Shown: positions 6,100 through 22,797 of the stretch, in pieces
Layout of the letters: each line of letters opens with the position of its first letter
How positions within the stretch are numbered: position 1 is the first letter of the stretch
DNA from: Holophagae bacterium
Lineage (GTDB): Bacteria; Acidobacteriota; Holophagae; Acanthopleuribacterales; Acanthopleuribacteraceae
DNA: 64,000 bases
Assembly (NCBI GenBank): GCA_029263455.1
Contig: JAJCXM010000008.1
Span: 620,001 to 684,000, forward strand
Direction of reading: 5' to 3'
The notes under the pieces: generated by a model
Seen by the model: only the letters and a program-made list of their open reading frames with translations
Told to the model about the DNA's origin: nothing
Databases searched by the model: none
Position numbers and translations under genes: made by a program

Positions 6100-7983
6100 T
6101 CAATTTGAGTTAAGTTTTTTCTGGGGATTACTAAAGGCCAGGATCGTAGCCTGTGCACCTGAGTCATTCGAAGACTCGATTATCGTTTCGACGCAAATGC
6201 GATTGCGACCATTGTGTTTAGCCTGGTAAAGGCCCTTGTCGGCAAGGCGAATCAAGTCATAAGTAGAATGTCCTAACTGGGGGACAAAAGCGGCTACACC
6301 GACACTCACCGTCACTTTTCCAACTGGTGATTGGTAATGGGGCAACGCAAGGTTCTCGATCTCCTGGCGTATCCTTATGGCGATTTGACTAGCCCCGTCG
6401 ATATCGGTGTGGGGCAGTATGACCGCGAATTCCTCACCGCCGTAGCGGCTGACGAGATCGGCTGATCGTTTAGTAACTGCTTTTGCCGTCTGTGCAACGG
6501 TCCGCAAGCACTGGTCACCCTCTAAGTGACCGTAATGGTCGTTGTACTGCTTAAAGTAGTCGATGTCGATCATGAGCAAGGCGAGCGATTGTGTTTGTCT
6601 TATGTGACGGTCTAGCTCCAGTTGCAGCGTTTGGTCAAAGGCTCGTCGATTGGCAAGTCCTGTTAAACCATCGACGCGTGATAGTTCTTCTAGCTTCGTG
6701 TATAGGCGTTTTGTTTCGGTAATGTCCAGGCTAAGTCCGATTAAGTGTCGGTTGCCGTTTTCTGCCTCAAACGAAGACGTGACCATCGATGCCCAGCGTT
6801 CCTGGCCATCTCGATGGCGGAAGCGATGTTCGATTTTGAAGGCAATGCCTGAACACATCTTTTTGATCACGTCACCTGTTATTTTCCGGTCTTCCTCAAA
6901 GGTAATTGCCCTGATGACATCGTTGGGTTTTTCTAGCCATTTCTCGGGGGTGTGGCCCGTCAGTTGCAAGATAGCGTTATTAATGTAAAGAATTTTCTGC
7001 TCGTTGACGTCGAAAAGCCAAAAAGCTTCTTTCAGGTTCTCCGCCAGCGAACGGAATCGCCTCTCGTTGGCTTTGAGTTGACGCACTGCCTTCTCTCGTT
7101 CTGAACGGTTGACGTAGATGCCTTGTAGGACGGTTGCTCCATCGGCTTGACGAACTAAATGTGCCGCCCCTTCGACATATACTATTTCACCGGACTTGGT
7201 GACGAATTCACTTTGAAGCTGAGGAACCTGTTCTCCCGATGTAACCGCCCGAATCACCAGATGGTGCTTTTTGCGCATCTCCTTAGAGATAATATCGTTA
7301 ACGGTCAGACCGCCAATTTCGTCGCGTGAATATCCTAAGGTTTGTAACCAATAGGCGTTAACAAACAAGAAGCGACCGTCGCTATCCACATGATGAATAA
7401 AACATTGAGCTAGCTCTAAAAAAGCGCGCGAGTTTATGTCGTTTGTCTTCAGCTCAATTCGGTTTAATAGGGCCTGACGCAGATGATTAAGGTTTACGGA
7501 AAACAGAACCGCCCCACCCACTAGTGTAGGAACGAACGAGGGTTCCAAGAACGGATTGATGTTTAGTGACAATAAAGAAGCTGCCCATAGCGCGGCCGTA
7601 GCCAGAAAGTTGATGACGTAGTGAATATGGCTCATGGTCAAAAACGAGACAATGATGTGCATCGCGATGTAAATCTGTGCAATAGCTAGCTCGTGAGTCA
7701 CATCGATTAGTGTCCATATCTTGATCAAGAAAGTGAGGTAGATAGCCACGCCCCAGTGATGACTTTGGTGGCTTGGAATCCGCTTAGTCTTGATTAGATA
7801 AGCCACGCTATATGCCATCAATAGCAAGACTATATTGCCTGCATGCGCCGCCATAGATCGGTGCAGTAGGATGTCCCGAATGACGAAAACAGGTACTGCC
7901 ATCATCATGGAGATGGCGAGATACCTTAAGACCGTTAGATAACTGCTATCTAGCTTCGATCGAAGTTGCGTTTCCTTGTTCAT
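6100..7983 (-). CDS. Membrane diguanylate cyclase with two PAS domains
   Basis: Synthesises cyclic di-GMP. The N-terminal ~180 residues form several hydrophobic helices (membrane sensor), followed by PAS 1 (about 188-300), PAS 2 (about 308-430, then a PAC-type segment) and a GGDEF domain from about 438. The active-site motif is GGEEF at 515-519, and the inhibitory-site RxxD (RSAD, 506-509) sits exactly five residues before it, so product inhibition is expected. ATG at 7983 has AGAGGAG upstream. The gene follows the NtrC-type regulator on the same strand after 156 bases. That gap holds an inverted repeat and an imperfect sigma-54 promoter, suggesting separate, activator-dependent transcription. 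Confidence 0.92.
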   Translation of the reverse strand: MNKETQLRSKLDSSYLTVLRYLAISMMMAVPVFVIRDILLHRSMAAHAGNIVLLLMAYSVAYLIKTKRIPSHQSHHWGVAIYLTFLIKIWTLIDVTHELAIAQIYIAMHIIVSFLTMSHIHYVINFLATAALWAASLLSLNINPFLEPSFVPTLVGGAVLFSVNLNHLRQALLNRIELKTNDINSRAFLELAQCFIHHVDSDGRFLFVNAYWLQTLGYSRDEIGGLTVNDIISKEMRKKHHLVIRAVTSGEQVPQLQSEFVTKSGEIVYVEGAAHLVRQADGATVLQGIYVNRSEREKAVRQLKANERRFRSLAENLKEAFWLFDVNEQKILYINNAILQLTGHTPEKWLEKPNDVIRAITFEEDRKITGDVIKKMCSGIAFKIEHRFRHRDGQERWASMVTSSFEAENGNRHLIGLSLDITETKRLYTKLEELSRVDGLTGLANRRAFDQTLQLELDRHIRQTQSLALLMIDIDYFKQYNDHYGHLEGDQCLRTVAQTAKAVTKRSADLVSRYGGEEFAVILPHTDIDGASQIAIRIRQEIENLALPHYQSPVGKVTVSVGVAAFVPQLGHSTYDLIRLADKGLYQAKHNGRNRICVETIIESSNDSGAQATILAFSNPQKKLNSN

Positions 7984-8139: not shown

Positions 8140-9474
8140 TTACTCGTCTTCACGTTTAAGCGCATAGGTGAGTTGTGCTCGAGTTAATCCCAACAGCTTG
8201 GCCGCTTTTGTTTGATTACCTGCTGTACGTCTCAGGGCTTCTTCCACCATTCTTTGCTTCGTGCTTTCAATGTTCAAATCGGAAAAATTTGATGGTTGCG
8301 TTACGGGAGCCAACCAACGATCTAATTCGTTCTTGTCGATGAAGTCACTTTGGTTGAAGATGAGACAGCGCTCGATCACATTGCTCAATTCGCGCAGATT
8401 ACCAGGCCAGGGATATTCCTTTAACCGGGCGACAGCGGAGTCGCGAAATGTGATTACTTTGCGATTGAGTTTGTGGGCGATTCGAGCAGCAAACATATCA
8501 GCCAGAACAGGGATATCCTCTGTTCGTTCCCGTAGATTTGGCAATTTAAATTGCACGACATTTAGACGGTAAAAGAGGTCGGATCTAAATGTTTTCTCCT
8601 GGACCATCGTTTCAAGATCACGATTGGTTGCGGCGACAAATCGAACATTGACTTCGATTTCCTTCATGCCGCCGACGCGCCTAAACCGAGACGTATCCAA
8701 AAGGCCCAGCAATTTTGCTTGAGTCGACTGGCTCATGTCCCCGATTTCATCAAGAAACAATGTGCCTCCGTGCGCGACTTCGGCCAAGCCAACCTTGGTC
8801 GCTCGAGCGTCGGTGAAAGCGCCTTTCTCATGACCAAATAGTTCACTCTCCAAAAGTTCGGCCGATAACGTGGTGCAAGTAACGTGAATGAAAGGGCTGG
8901 CCCGTCTTTGACTATTATAGTGAATAAGCTCAGCCAAGAAGCTTTTACCCACGCCACTTTCTCCGGTAATCAACAAAGTGTTTGATTCCGTGGCCGAGTA
9001 TGTCTTGGCCAGCTCGAATACATCTTCCATGGCTTTGGACTTAAATCGGACTTGATCGAAACTATAGAAGCTGTCTCGTTTCTGGTGGACCTGCTTGAGT
9101 TCGTTTTCCACTTCCTGGAGTCGTAGCGCGATTTCAACTTTCAAGCGCATGACGTTGGGCTGAAAGGGTTTTTCAAGAAAATCGATAGCCCCCAACTGCA
9201 TCGCTTTCACGCCTAAATCCGTTGATCCATATCCGGTAACAAACATGAACACAGGTAGTTGGTCCGGAGGGAGAGACTGAATAAGCTCTATCCCATTGCC
9301 ATCGCCGAGCTGGTAGTCAAGGATCATTAAGGACCATTTTTGTTGTGCCAGGGCGATGCGAGCTTCTTTGATTGACATGACATGATGAAAATTAACGCCT
9401 AGTTGCATTACGATCTGGCGCATCATCAAGCCAATGTTACGGTCGTCATCCACCAATAATATAGTTTTTGTCAT
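8140..9474 (-). CDS. NtrC-family sigma-54-dependent response regulator
   Basis: Activates sigma-54 RNA polymerase. The 444 residues have the classical order: receiver domain with phospho-acceptor Asp53 and Lys102, AAA+ domain with Walker A GESGVGKS (171-178), the sigma-54-contacting loop GAFTDA (218-223, a common variant of GAFTGA), Walker B LFLDEIGD (239-246), and a C-terminal Fis-type helix-turn-helix (GNQTKAAKLLGLTRAQL). No histidine kinase gene is adjacent, so it is an orphan. It stands between a diguanylate cyclase downstream and a divergent operon headed by a near-perfect sigma-54 promoter, the obvious candidate target. ATG at 9474 has only a weak ribosome site. Confidence 0.95.
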   Translation of the reverse strand: MTKTILLVDDDRNIGLMMRQIVMQLGVNFHHVMSIKEARIALAQQKWSLMILDYQLGDGNGIELIQSLPPDQLPVFMFVTGYGSTDLGVKAMQLGAIDFLEKPFQPNVMRLKVEIALRLQEVENELKQVHQKRDSFYSFDQVRFKSKAMEDVFELAKTYSATESNTLLITGESGVGKSFLAELIHYNSQRRASPFIHVTCTTLSAELLESELFGHEKGAFTDARATKVGLAEVAHGGTLFLDEIGDMSQSTQAKLLGLLDTSRFRRVGGMKEIEVNVRFVAATNRDLETMVQEKTFRSDLFYRLNVVQFKLPNLRERTEDIPVLADMFAARIAHKLNRKVITFRDSAVARLKEYPWPGNLRELSNVIERCLIFNQSDFIDKNELDRWLAPVTQPSNFSDLNIESTKQRMVEEALRRTAGNQTKAAKLLGLTRAQLTYALKREDE

Positions 9475-9670: not shown

Positions 9671-9686
9671 TGGCACGGCACGTGCA
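9671..9686 (+). promoter_or_regulatory. Sigma-54 promoter, near-perfect
   Basis: TGGCACG-GCAC-GTGCA differs from the TGGCACG-N4-TTGCA consensus at one base and has exactly 10 bases between the -24 GG and the -12 GC. Transcription is predicted to start near 9697, 32 bases before the ATG at 9729. Confidence 0.85.
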
Positions 9687-9728: not shown

Positions 9729-10718
9729 ATGATTGAATTAAGCCTGAAACAAGAAAACAAACAACCGATGCTGGGAAATTGCGTGCCAGTGGATCTTTCG
9801 TTAACAGACGGAAGCACCCAGTGTGTTGGCCTGATAGGCTTTTCACCGCGCGATACGGAAATCACATTTGTGGATCCCACTAAAGAAGGCTATTCCTTGC
9901 AACGAATATCTTGCCGCAAGGTGTCGTATTTGGCTTTTGGCCACAAAAAAAATGACTTACCCATAATACTTGAAGAAAAGAGCATGGTTCCCCACCAAGT
10001 GAACTGTTCTAATAATCGTCATTTTTCGGTGCTCATTCGCCCCGATAACCTAGTCGCCAACCAAGGGTTTTTTGGCTACAGTCAAAGTGAAAACGATGAG
10101 AATGCCTACATATTCTTTTACCCATGGGGTGTCGAAAAGGTCACACAACTTGCGGAACTTCTGGTCACTGAAACCGTCAACGCAAAACAGGAACAAATGA
10201 GTCATGTTTGGTCGGAAGACGGTGCCTGGGATTTTCTGGCCTGGGATCAACCAGAGAGACTGGGAGAACGAGGTCGAATTCGGTGGAGCAATATCAAGAT
10301 TCCAGCTGTGGCCATGCTCTTACAACGTGAACTCAATGGCAAACGCGCTGTTGACAGGAGTGATGTAGACACCCATCAACATGTGAGCCTAATGATGATG
10401 TTTAACGCGATCATTGATGCTATTCATGCGCTTGGAGAAGTGGAATTTCAGATTGATCCTATCCAAGGTGATCGTGACTGTTGGATCCGGTTCATGTCCG
10501 AAGGCCAGTCCGTTTGGTCGTTTCCGTTAAGAGTAGAAGTTCGTCGCGAATTGGTAGGCATGCTGCGTGTCCTATCTTGCCTTGGAAGTGCCACCGAAGA
10601 AATTCAGGAAAGCGAACTTCGCTGGCGTGCCAATGATGAAGATGTTCAGGTGCACATTTCCTTAATCCCACAAGGCTTGTCGGAGTCACTTAGACTCACA
10701 CTGCAAGCGAACGATTGA
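9729..10718 (+). CDS. Uncharacterised protein with PilB/GspE N2-like domain, no ATPase core
   Basis: No named function. The 329-residue cytosolic protein has two small beta-rich stretches (about 10-75 and 85-145) of a pattern seen in short Sm-like/DUF domains. A C-terminal region (about 178-326) is collinear with the product of 22140-22721: RIRW...IP...LLQRE...DVDT..HVSLM, then EFQID, RFMSEG, WSFP, MLRVLSCLG and an ISLIPQG strand. The order resembles the N2 (PAS-like) domain of type IV pilus/type II secretion ATPases (DIHIEP, LRYRIDG, RLKVMAGLD, RVSTLPT), but no Walker box follows. The start was chosen at 9729 because GGAGGA lies 8 bases upstream; an in-frame ATG at 9708 lacks one. First gene of a sigma-54-type operon with the EAL protein, 14 bases downstream. 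Confidence 0.8.
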   Translation: MIELSLKQENKQPMLGNCVPVDLSLTDGSTQCVGLIGFSPRDTEITFVDPTKEGYSLQRISCRKVSYLAFGHKKNDLPIILEEKSMVPHQVNCSNNRHFSVLIRPDNLVANQGFFGYSQSENDENAYIFFYPWGVEKVTQLAELLVTETVNAKQEQMSHVWSEDGAWDFLAWDQPERLGERGRIRWSNIKIPAVAMLLQRELNGKRAVDRSDVDTHQHVSLMMMFNAIIDAIHALGEVEFQIDPIQGDRDCWIRFMSEGQSVWSFPLRVEVRRELVGMLRVLSCLGSATEEIQESELRWRANDEDVQVHISLIPQGLSESLRLTLQAND

Positions 10719-10732
10719 AAATGGAGAATATG

Positions 10733-12859
10733 ATGAATAATTCAAAATTTTATGCAGTCGACAGCGAACGAGGTTTGCATTCTGTCGCTATCATGATCGC
10801 TGAAAACTCCCAATCGTTTCAAAGCATCTGTGAGGCACTTGATGAAATGAATGTTTCCTGCGTGTTTTGTTCGCCAGTCGAGTTAAAGGCACTTGTCACA
10901 GCCCACGATCCCATTTTGGTACTTGTCGATCACGAGGTCATTGATGGTGACGGCATTGACTTTTGTAGTGAGTTACGAAACTCGTTGTTAGATATGCAGG
11001 TTCCTTTGGTTTATCTAACCAATAACGAAGACCCTTCTGAAATGGTCAGAGCCTTTGAAGCCGGCGTCTCAAATATATTTGTAAACAGTCGATGTAGTGA
11101 ACTCATTGATTATTTGCGACAAATATTAGAGTCGCCAAACGTGCCTTTGGCGGAGTCTGTTTGGGACCGAGGCAATATCCTGATGGTTGAAGATGAAGAT
11201 TTTGTGGCAGACGCACTCAAGATCGCTCTGATTCAACAAGGGCATGAAGTGAATCGGCTGGCAGACGGAAGTCGTATGCTGTCTGAAGTGGATCGCCTGC
11301 AACCTGACATCCTGCTCTTGGATCTTAATCTTCCTGGACGAAGTGGCTTTGAGTTGATTGCCGAACTGAAAAGTTCTCGACGCCATCGCCATATTCCGAT
11401 CATCGTTACATCGGGGCAAACAGATCGAGACTGTGTGCTGAAGGCGCTTCGTTTAGGGGCAGAAGATTATGTCCGTAAGCCTTTTGACATGGCAGAATTG
11501 TCGGCCCGAATTCGCAACTTAGTGCGAATCAAGTCGATGCATGATTTGATGAAACGTTCACGTATCTTTTGGCACGATCACGATGAACTAACAGGTCTTG
11601 TGAACAAGTCTGCAATGGCATCACAGATCAGACAACGTCTGGTAGCTGGCCAAAGTCTTGCCCTCTTGATTGTCGATATTGATGACTTCCATCGCATCGA
11701 TCACGGCATCGGCGATAAAGCTGGTGAAGTGGCACTGATTCGAGTCGCCGACTGTCTTAACAAAACCCTGCCCATGGCCTCAATCATCGCGCGTATTGAA
11801 GGCGCCAAATTTGCCGTGGTTATGAAAACGACATCACGAGGTCGCGTCGAACTTGCTGCCGACTTAATTGCAAAATCGCTAGCTCGACCTCTGTACCTGG
11901 GTGGGCAAGAGGTTTACCTACGTGCAAGCATCGGCGTATGCATGGCACCAAGCCAGGCGACCTCTTTTTCAGGCGCCTTTCGCTGCGCCTCGCTGGCAGT
12001 ACAAGAAGCTGCGATAAGTGGTGGTCGAGCATGTTTCTTCGACAACGCCATGGATGAAAACCGTAGGATCGAAATGACCCTAGAAAAAGATATCCTTCAC
12101 GCCATCGAACGTAACGAGATGCGTGTCGTTTTTCAGCCTAAAGTGGATCTGGAATCCCAAATGATAACCGGTGCCGAAGCTTTGTTGCGCTGGCAACATC
12201 CCAAATATGGCTGGATATCGCCTCTGAAAATGATTCCCATAGCTGAGCGTAACCTGGCCATTATCCCCATTGGTAAGTGGGTTGTAAGACAGGCATGTAA
12301 GTTCTGGTTGGCTTGTGATGCCATCGGCCGAGCAGACATGACAGTCGCAATCAATCTATCTGCAAAACAGTTTCGAGATCGTAACTTGGTCAACGACATT
12401 ATGGCTATTTTACGTCAAGAAGATGTGCCCACATCGGCAATAGAATTAGAAATAACCGAGAGCTGTTCGATGGAAAACGTTGACGCCACTCAAAAGACAT
12501 TAACCGAACTCAAACAGCTTGGCTTTCGACTTGCCGTCGATGATTTTGGAACGGGCTATTCATCGCTCTCCTACCTGACAAGATTCCCTATTGACACGCT
12601 TAAGATTGATCGTTCGTTTGTCATGAACGTTCCTTGCGATACAGCCGCGTCAGCTGTGGCAGCGGGTATCGTATCTTTGGCAAAATCACTAAGTTTGACG
12701 TGTGTCGCAGAAGGTGTCGAAACCGAGCAGCAACTAGAGTTTCTGCGCAGTCTCGGCTGTACCACGGGACAAGGCTATCTGTTCAGCAAACCTTTGGAAA
12801 TGGCCCAAGTCTTGGAAAAATTAAGAAAGGATGTGTCATACCAAAGAATGTCCGCCTGA
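10733..12859 (+). CDS. Double-receiver, degenerate GGDEF, EAL c-di-GMP phosphodiesterase
   Basis: Predicted to hydrolyse cyclic di-GMP to pGpG. Domain order in 708 residues: a receiver-like domain with Asp66 but no acidic pair or conserved lysine; a complete receiver (Asp197, KPF motif); a GGDEF domain whose active site is EGAKF (356-360), so cyclase activity is lost; and an EAL domain with all expected catalytic elements: EALLRW (Glu482), NLSAKQ, EITES, DDFGTGYSS, LKIDRSF, AEGVET and GQGYLFSKP. The ATG at 10733 was chosen because GGAG lies 6 bases upstream; TTG and ATG codons at 10715-10730 are also in frame. Second gene of the sigma-54-type operon, closed by the terminator at 12886-12917. 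Confidence 0.94.
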   Translation: MNNSKFYAVDSERGLHSVAIMIAENSQSFQSICEALDEMNVSCVFCSPVELKALVTAHDPILVLVDHEVIDGDGIDFCSELRNSLLDMQVPLVYLTNNEDPSEMVRAFEAGVSNIFVNSRCSELIDYLRQILESPNVPLAESVWDRGNILMVEDEDFVADALKIALIQQGHEVNRLADGSRMLSEVDRLQPDILLLDLNLPGRSGFELIAELKSSRRHRHIPIIVTSGQTDRDCVLKALRLGAEDYVRKPFDMAELSARIRNLVRIKSMHDLMKRSRIFWHDHDELTGLVNKSAMASQIRQRLVAGQSLALLIVDIDDFHRIDHGIGDKAGEVALIRVADCLNKTLPMASIIARIEGAKFAVVMKTTSRGRVELAADLIAKSLARPLYLGGQEVYLRASIGVCMAPSQATSFSGAFRCASLAVQEAAISGGRACFFDNAMDENRRIEMTLEKDILHAIERNEMRVVFQPKVDLESQMITGAEALLRWQHPKYGWISPLKMIPIAERNLAIIPIGKWVVRQACKFWLACDAIGRADMTVAINLSAKQFRDRNLVNDIMAILRQEDVPTSAIELEITESCSMENVDATQKTLTELKQLGFRLAVDDFGTGYSSLSYLTRFPIDTLKIDRSFVMNVPCDTAASAVAAGIVSLAKSLSLTCVAEGVETEQQLEFLRSLGCTTGQGYLFSKPLEMAQVLEKLRKDVSYQRMSA

Positions 12860-13225: not shown

Positions 13226-14410
13226 ATGTTGTTCTTGGCCGTCCTATTTGTGTCTACTCAAGTGCAAGCGTCCGACTTAGTGTTTTACGGCGCTCAATTC
13301 AAACAATCAACCGCGCAGGTCTTGACCGGGTATCATGTTGAATTGGATGTGACGCTCATTGAAGATGGCGTGGAAAGTCTTTCTCTTACTCTCCCTGACA
13401 GCGTGACTGGATTCCTGCATAAAGATGCTTATAAGGTTGCTGAAGATGGCAGCGTCAGCTGGATCGGACAATGGCAAGACGACCGTGGTCGTTCGCCAGT
13501 CTTTATTACAGCTGTTAATGGTCAAGTTTCAGCTCTGATCTACGCCGACGATCGCGTCTTTCAAATCCGACCGACCGATGATGGCCACCTGTTTGAAGAA
13601 ATTGATCAGGCTTCCTTCCCTGAATGCGGCGGAACCCTCGAGCCTCAATCCTGGCAGATGAAGGACGATCGAATCATTAATGAAGCTGTGTCAATGGACA
13701 TGCTGACGGTGGACGCAATGGTTATGTATTCGTTGGCTTCTGAGAACGCAGTAGGTGGACCAGACGGCATGACTGCCCTGATTCGTAATGCCATCGACAT
13801 CACCAATTTCGCTTTCACGCAAAGCCAAATAGAAGCGCGTGTACGACTGGTGCATCATCAAGTTGTGGCTTATTCTGAAACCGCTGATTTAAACAAAGAC
13901 CTCAAATGGCTGAAAGATAACCGTGACGTCGCCCGTTTGCGAGATTTATATGGCGCAGATGTCGTCGGCATGATCGTAGAGAATGGTGGAAACAGCTGTG
14001 GAACCGCTTACCTTCAACGTCAAATAAAGAATAGCTTTTCAACGGATGCCTTTCACGTGACTGCTCGAGCCTGTACGGCAAGCAATCTTTCCTTAGCCCA
14101 TGAATTGGCGCACAACCTTGGTTGCGAACATGATCCAGGCAATACCGATGCGATTGCTAGCAAGGCTTCCAATCCTTGGTCTTTTGGCCATTATGTTAAT
14201 GGCAGTTTTCGAACCGTTATGTCCTATGCGGCCCATTGTTCATCAGGTTGCAAGCGCATGCCTTATTTCTCCAACTCTAATGTCCTTGTCAACGGCTTTC
14301 CGGCAGGCATTGCTAACCAACGTGAAAACTATCGCACCATCAAACAAGTGACCCAGTTGGCAGCCAATTTCCGACCTTCAAAAACCAAGTCATTAGCCGT
14401 CCGTCAGTAA
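13226..14410 (+). CDS. Secreted zinc metalloprotease, metzincin (reprolysin-like)
   Basis: Predicted exported endopeptidase. The 394-residue precursor begins with a short hydrophobic signal (LFLAVLFVSTQVQA, cleavage probably before SDLVF) and a pro-region of about 150 residues with a cysteine (PECGGT near 132-137) that could act as a cysteine switch. The catalytic domain carries the long metzincin zinc motif HELAHNLGCEHD (His292, His296, His302, Glu293) and the Met-turn TVMSY with Met332. It ends soon after, with no extra C-terminal binding module. ATG at 13226 has AGGAG upstream. It appears monocistronic, between a sigma-54-like promoter (13059) and a terminator (14431-14467). Confidence 0.92.
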   Translation: MLFLAVLFVSTQVQASDLVFYGAQFKQSTAQVLTGYHVELDVTLIEDGVESLSLTLPDSVTGFLHKDAYKVAEDGSVSWIGQWQDDRGRSPVFITAVNGQVSALIYADDRVFQIRPTDDGHLFEEIDQASFPECGGTLEPQSWQMKDDRIINEAVSMDMLTVDAMVMYSLASENAVGGPDGMTALIRNAIDITNFAFTQSQIEARVRLVHHQVVAYSETADLNKDLKWLKDNRDVARLRDLYGADVVGMIVENGGNSCGTAYLQRQIKNSFSTDAFHVTARACTASNLSLAHELAHNLGCEHDPGNTDAIASKASNPWSFGHYVNGSFRTVMSYAAHCSSGCKRMPYFSNSNVLVNGFPAGIANQRENYRTIKQVTQLAANFRPSKTKSLAVRQ

Positions 14411-22139: not shown

Positions 22140-22721
22140 TCAATCACGGATCGGTGATTCGATCCAAACGACCAGTCGCGCGTGTCCTTCATGCGTGGGT
22201 TTCGCCATAACTTTGATGTGGCTCTCGCGATTATTGACATTCCAACGAATGGAACGTTCGGTTTCGTCCATGAGAGAGTCCATATTGGACATCACTTTAA
22301 ACATAGAGATCATTTCGTTAGAGATCGCGTCAGGGACTGGTAACGACCAGAAGGTTCTACCTTCAACGACGTAACGTAGGCTGCCATAAGCACAACCCAT
22401 CGCGGAGTTGAGATGTAGTTCTGCATTTTGAATTTCGTGAAGTTCATTGACGATGGCTTTCACCATAGACATCAAGTTCACGCGGTGCATGGTGTCGACA
22501 CCGTCAGCGTGGCGCGTTGCCTTGGATTCGTATTCCCGTCTCATCATGCGCACAAGGCTAGGAATGTCACTCCCTTTCCAGGTGATCTTTGGCGAGGATT
22601 CGGAAGAGCCGATCACCGGAATCCGTGTCCCTTTGGCGGGGCGAACAACGGGCGCGCTTATTTTCAGGTTTGATTCCCTGAGTGCTATGTCAAGTCGTTC
22701 GGTTACTGATAAATGGCTCAT
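22140..22721 (-). CDS. Uncharacterised small protein, PilB/GspE N2-like domain, paralogue of the 9729-10718 product
   Basis: No named function. The 193-residue soluble protein has a ~65-residue linker-like N-terminus and then a domain (about 52-190) collinear with the C-terminus of the protein at 9729-10718: IP..VRMMRRE, DGVDTMHRVNLM, AELHLN, SLRYVVEG, WSLP, ISMFKVMSNMD, IKVMAKPT and ARLVVWI. These follow the order of the pilus/type II secretion ATPase N2 domain (DIHLEP, LRYRIDG, SRLKVMAGLD, RVSTLPT, GEKVVLR), but no nucleotide-binding core follows. The start was set at 22721 (AGGGAG 8 bases upstream). An earlier in-frame ATG at 22775 would precede the transcription start predicted from the sigma-54-like promoter at 22782-22797. 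Monocistronic. Confidence 0.8.
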   Translation of the reverse strand: MSHLSVTERLDIALRESNLKISAPVVRPAKGTRIPVIGSSESSPKITWKGSDIPSLVRMMRREYESKATRHADGVDTMHRVNLMSMVKAIVNELHEIQNAELHLNSAMGCAYGSLRYVVEGRTFWSLPVPDAISNEMISMFKVMSNMDSLMDETERSIRWNVNNRESHIKVMAKPTHEGHARLVVWIESPIRD

Positions 22722-22781
22722 TTTTGGCTTCTCCCTAACTAGCGTGTTAACGTGGCTGGCCGCGTTGTCGAACACAGATAG

Positions 22782-22797
22782 AGCATAGCTTGTGCCA
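22782..22797 (-). promoter_or_regulatory. Sigma-54 promoter for the small PilB-N2-like gene
   Basis: On the minus strand: TGGCACA-AGCT-ATGCT, with exact GG-N10-GC spacing and TTGGCAC at -24. The start is predicted near 22771, about 50 bases before the chosen ATG. Confidence 0.65.

Follow-up and report, generated by a model that had tools for sequence, protein, structure and literature searches.

What does the N2 domain of a traffic ATPase do in a protein that contains no ATPase? It is not settled how the motors of type IV pili and of type II secretion are switched on and off, and the motor regulators known so far either bind N1 or act via PilZ. In the window (the whole stretch of 64,000 nucleotides from a Holophagae bacterium analysed here) an earlier note had read the open reading frame at 9729-10718 (+) by eye as small beta domains fused to a domain resembling the N2 domain of PilB/GspE, in an operon with an EAL phosphodiesterase gene. 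A natural N2 domain of this kind provides a testable handle on the motor surface contacted by N2 and suggests regulation by domain mimicry. New in the present analysis are three relatives of the protein, a sigma-54-type promoter shared by their genes, and an MshEN-like open reading frame in the orthologous operon.

The gene at 9729-10718 and the architecture of its product

The open reading frame is intact: it starts with ATG at 9729, immediately preceded by GGAGG, and ends with the stop codon at 10716-10718, encoding a protein of 329 amino acids (P0001). The AlphaFold model of P0001 (mean pLDDT 64.8), for which an alignment of the four family proteins described below was the input, contains two predicted five-stranded beta modules at the N-terminus (residues about 19-71 and about 87-140; 9783-10148, +), which agree with the "small beta domains" of the earlier note, and the N2-like domain at residues about 188-329 (10290-10715, +).

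The beta-module part is present in three of the four family proteins. Compared with Pfam, the PDB, the same ATPases as were used for N2 and 396 genomes of the phylum, the N-terminal part of P0001 had no match beyond the genus; the PilZ profile matched neither P0001 nor the set of N-terminal sequences, and the MshEN profile (PF05157) did not match P0001. A fold search with the modules (model pLDDT 67.7) gave YaeO (Z 5.0) and Hfq (Z 4.5) as the best matches. We do not claim an Sm/Hfq identity, a likeness at Z 4-5 being too low to name the modules.

Identity of the C-terminal domain

When P0001 alone was searched against Pfam, NCBIfam and the PDB, no significant match was obtained; YdjC and later DAPG hydrolase, which had come up in single-sequence searches, were rejected as chance matches. 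For P0001 the match to N2 was visible only with a family profile built from the protein and its relatives. The orthologue in the second genome (L004), searched alone, matched T2SSE positions 8-109 (E 0.035) and the NCBIfam models of GspE, ComGA and PilB (E 0.0011-0.17). With the four-sequence profile (A3), 12 of 13 PDB matches were to GspE, PilF or PilB (E 1.6e-5 to 0.5), among them EpsE, GspE of V. vulnificus, PilF of Thermus and further PilB chains, and the confident ones (best E 1.6e-5) were exclusively to the N2 regions of these proteins. In 59 additional genomes of Acidobacteriota profile A1 found the N2 domain of real ATPases, always with the same profile positions; Walker A was present in the same open reading frame at 37 of the 38 N2-match loci that were re-read, the exception (L071) being located on a 3-kb contig.

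The alignment is far better than random: the family profile scored 45.2 against N2 in hhalign, as compared with a mean of 12.4 (sd 2.4, maximum 20.3) for 200 column shuffles and with 18.2 for the reversed profile. The motifs in the C-terminal half, whose order had been recognized by eye, fall in that order on the strands and helices of N2, EFQID pairing with DIHIE, RFMSEG with RFRVDG, MLRVLSCLG with RVKVMAKLD and ISLIPQG with VSTMPSSHG. The structure search proposed in the earlier note, carried out with the predicted model, likewise put N2 of GspE/PilB on top: the best 23 Foldseek matches were all PilB, GspE or PilF, plus one bundle-forming pilus ATPase, and residues 188-329 of the model superimposed on EpsE 98-230 with Z 14.1 and rmsd 2.7 over 118 residues. 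The fold match is specific to N2 of GspE/PilB (Z 13-14), PAS domains appearing at Z about 4 only. As judged from profiles and the predicted fold, the C-terminal domain of P0001 is therefore of the N2 kind known from GspE/PilB traffic ATPases.

A family of four genes

The family has four genes, two in each of two genomes that belong to a single genus of Acidobacteriota, and is kept across the two at about 25% identity with invariant residues. The second member in the window, at 22140-22721 (-), was found by a six-frame protein search and is a stand-alone N2 protein of 193 amino acids without beta modules; its open reading frame spans 22140-22775 (-), the likely start being the ATG at 22721. The same search revealed the two family genes of the other genome, that of the Acidobacteria MAG HKST-UBA04, which was the only further genome of the genus covered.

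In 93 genomes of the class and 396 of the phylum no further ATPase-less N2 member was found with confidence. One open reading frame of 251 amino acids (G024) probably represents a disrupted ATPase, because the close relatives G010 and G022 have 552-585 amino acids there. Viral contigs contained no relative; contigs of other phyla were scanned with one peptide pattern, so that relatives elsewhere may be missed. According to the earlier note stand-alone N2 domains are not known as a described class, and none came up here: Pfam and NCBIfam have no family for them, and no paper on them was found in the limited open-access literature.

What the family has lost

As the earlier note had observed, no Walker A, Asp-box or Walker B follows the N2 domain; P0001 ends there, and the next open reading frame encodes a REC-REC-GGDEF-EAL protein. 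The losses extend into N2 itself. Of 26 motor-conserved columns, each at least 90% conserved across the N2 domains of 61 local ATPases, only one (a proline) is kept by all four family proteins, and 14 are kept by at least one of them. The R-PQDG loop of motor N2 domains is gone in the family. At the positions of the two N2 arginine fingers (R210 and R225 in EpsE), which are 98% arginine in the 61 local ATPases, the family has H/K/K/H and Q/W/W/W. We equated R210 and R225 of EpsE with R271 and R286 of PilB-Gm via the 15-residue spacing and the numbering of 1p9r, a construct that presumably lacks the first 90 residues. In PilB-Gm the nucleotide of the adjacent subunit is sensed by R271 and R286 of N2 (PMC5424180).

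The loss of nearly all motor-conserved positions argues against a simple substitution for a normal N2 domain, and, with only one of the 26 columns kept, the surfaces for normal packing of N2 against the C-terminal ATPase domain (CTD) may be gone. The family has acquired invariants of its own (WSxP, RE, DT and W299), which are absent from the ATPases. This ATPase-less and finger-less N2 family would be the first entry for a family unnamed by current Pfam and NCBIfam models.

The operon partner and the neighbouring genes

About 14 nt 3' of the N2 gene begins the gene of the REC-REC-GGDEF-EAL protein (10733-12859, +), whose GGDEF domain is degenerate (EGAKF) and whose EAL signature is intact, all signature residues being found by eye (EALLRW, the N in INLSAKQ, ELEITES, DDFGTGYSS, the K in LKIDRSF, AEGVE and QGYLF). 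From these residues the partner would be an active phosphodiesterase. The pairing of the N2 gene with an EAL gene noted earlier is conserved at the orthologous pair in the second genome, where the protein encoded after the N2 gene is 40% identical to the partner.

The orthologous operon in the second genome encodes, in this order, an MshEN-like protein of 103 amino acids, the N2 protein, a REC-REC-degenerate GGDEF-EAL protein, an Hpt protein and a hybrid kinase. The MshEN/N1-like open reading frame (L059:11077-11388, -) was recognized with E 3.3e-4 and 21.0 bits, the cut-off being 23.1, and its stop codon overlaps the start codon of the N2 gene (ATGA). This operon thus has separate N1-like and N2-like genes and no ATPase. 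At two family members (window 22140 and L002) no c-di-GMP gene is directly adjacent.

Divergent from the N2 operon are the gene of an NtrC-type sigma-54 activator (REC-Sigma54_activat-Fis HTH; 8140-9474, -) and, after it, that of a PAS-PAS-GGDEF diguanylate cyclase with intact GGEEF (6100-7983, -), so that one divergent regulatory region is flanked by a cyclase and a phosphodiesterase gene. Both genomes have a gene for a reprolysin-like secreted metalloprotease close to the N2 operon (window 13226-14410; L059:15964-17196, the second recognized by eye).

Sigma-54-type promoters

A sigma-54-type -24/-12 site, TGGCACGGCACGTGCA (9671-9686, +), is located 58 nt 5' of the start codon of the N2 gene, and the NtrC-type activator is the candidate regulator of this promoter. 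A second site, TGGCACAAGCTATGCT (22782-22797, -), lies 76 nt 5' of the ATG of the paralogue. These are the only two matches of the strict pattern TGGCACN6TGCW in the 64 kb (0.30 expected), each directly 5' of a family gene. The site at 9671 was first noticed by eye and then tested, and is therefore the discovery case. The pattern TGGC-N8-TGC precedes all four family genes or operons, at -58, -76, -65 and -39 (0.013 expected per 100 nt), and when the upstream stretches are aligned, TTGGC and TGC are among the few invariant columns. The chance of such a site in a random 120-mer is 0.0013 for the discovery case and 0.0013, 0.005 and 0.026 for the other genes. In the whole genome the strict sigma-54 pattern is no more frequent than the reversed-pattern control (2 versus 2; 22 versus 23), and what carries the promoter argument is therefore where the sites lie, not how many there are. 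The genome contains rpoN. From the sites we infer that the family genes would be expressed together from sigma-54-type promoters.

In both genomes an orthologous gene, the first of two tandem major-pilin-like genes, is preceded by TGGCCT-N5-TTGCT (p about 0.02 and 0.01). The distance of these pairs (L148, G000:C8, about 581 kb; L141, G001:C58, about 91 kb) to the N2 operon is 48 kb and 38 kb. A sigma-54 link between the N2 family and pilin is suggested by these sites; it is weak, since sites at p<0.04 precede 6 of 30 pilin loci.

Proposed role and alternatives

We tentatively propose, with somewhat less than even confidence, that P0001 regulates a pilus or secretion motor in trans, probably by braking it, within a sigma-54/c-di-GMP circuit. 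The target of the N2 paralogue with its two added beta modules would be the motor of a type IV pilus or of a type II-like system: the N2 fold would bind a component of the motor or the platform, and the c-di-GMP signal would enter through the EAL partner or the beta modules. With neither N2 arginine finger present, the ATP site would stay incomplete in any unit that P0001 formed with a subunit of the motor; P0001 would then not activate the motor but brake it, or fill a place in it unproductively. In favour of a motor are the N2 homology, the conserved EAL pairing, the MshEN/N1-like open reading frame beside the orthologue, the sigma-54-type sites, the motors and pilins encoded in the genome, and the precedent from Xanthomonas citri given below. 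Counting against this role are the few motor-conserved columns kept, the location of the N2 operon outside any pilus gene cluster, the pilin genes being 40-50 kb away, the two family members with no c-di-GMP gene directly adjacent, and the weakness of the pilin link.

Less likely is the explanation that the PAS-like N2 fold now serves two-component/c-di-GMP signalling as a general module for dimerisation or for binding a partner, without contact to a motor, the REC-REC-GGDEF-EAL protein or a nearby kinase being its partner. The surrounding genes are those of kinases, regulators and c-di-GMP enzymes, motor-specific residues were lost while the fold and the new invariants WSxP, RE and DT were kept, and the fold search gave weak PAS matches; these matches, however, remain at Z about 4 as against 13-14 for N2 of GspE/PilB, and a general signalling module does not predict the MshEN/N1-like open reading frame beside the orthologue.

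The braking of a motor, to return to it, may be pictured more concretely: a detached N2 domain without arginine fingers, under sigma-54 control together with pilin, would insert into or cap PilB/GspE hexamers and stall them, the partner phosphodiesterase setting the timing. As a description of the mechanism this is unlikely, and if it were true, a traffic ATPase would be controlled in trans by a copy of one of its own domains. Docking in an ATPase hexamer and a link from c-di-GMP to it, which the earlier note had suggested, are likewise conjectural.

Quite unlikely is an adaptor that activates assembly or localises the motor, loading or positioning it at the platform as FimX-PilZ does for PilB. 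Such an adaptor would fit the conserved EAL partner and the sigma-54-type sites before pilin genes, and it has a precedent in PilB-PilZ-FimX (PMC8389850). The loss of the arginine fingers and of the QDG[RK] loop leaves it no way to support hydrolysis, and the EAL catalytic signature of the partner is intact, whereas the EAL domain of FimX is degenerate. That P0001 is merely what remains, without function, of a traffic ATPase decaying after the loss of its motor half is hardly credible. Most motor-conserved residues are indeed lost, but against decay it can be said that all four genes in the two genomes have open reading frames, that the added domains and the operon partner are conserved, that the promoter type is shared, and that the proteins have common invariants which the ATPases lack.

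Comparison with known systems

The N2 domains of GspE/EpsE, PilB and Thermus PilF (the N-terminal about 110 positions of T2SSE, PF00437) have the same alpha-beta-beta-beta-alpha-beta-beta-beta order as is predicted for P0001, which differs from the GspE/EpsE, PilB and PilF motors in that the CTD, the Walker motifs, the Asp box and the His box are missing.

Among the best N2 scores for the family are those of Acidobacteriota ATPases of about 770-890 amino acids with the order GAF-MshEN-N2-CTD, which have an insertion before the R-x-R-x-D-G strand similar to that in the family. Unlike P0001 they are complete motors with a GAF-like N-terminus, in which no likeness to the beta modules was found. 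Traffic ATPases of this size with N2 among the nearest to the family are encoded at L009, L010, L014, L062, L063, L065-L069, L072-L074 and L076; L010, L062 and L068 were read through and have a GAF-like N-terminus (by eye) followed by MshEN-N2-CTD.

Stand-alone MshEN (N1) proteins, which exist in these genomes, are likewise a domain of the same motors without the ATPase; they differ in being N1 rather than N2, and MshEN is a known c-di-GMP receptor domain. Open reading frames of about 355 amino acids with two MshEN domains each and no ATPase match are found at G000:C21, about 11.5-12.2 kb, and G001:C26, about 185 kb (L094, L095, L098, L099).

The FimX-PilZ-PilB system, in which a GGDEF-EAL protein is tied to a pilus motor via a small protein, may serve as a working analogy only; P0001 has no homology to PilZ or MshEN, and the EAL signature of its partner is intact. 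In Xanthomonas citri an EAL protein acts on PilB through PilZ (PMC8389850).
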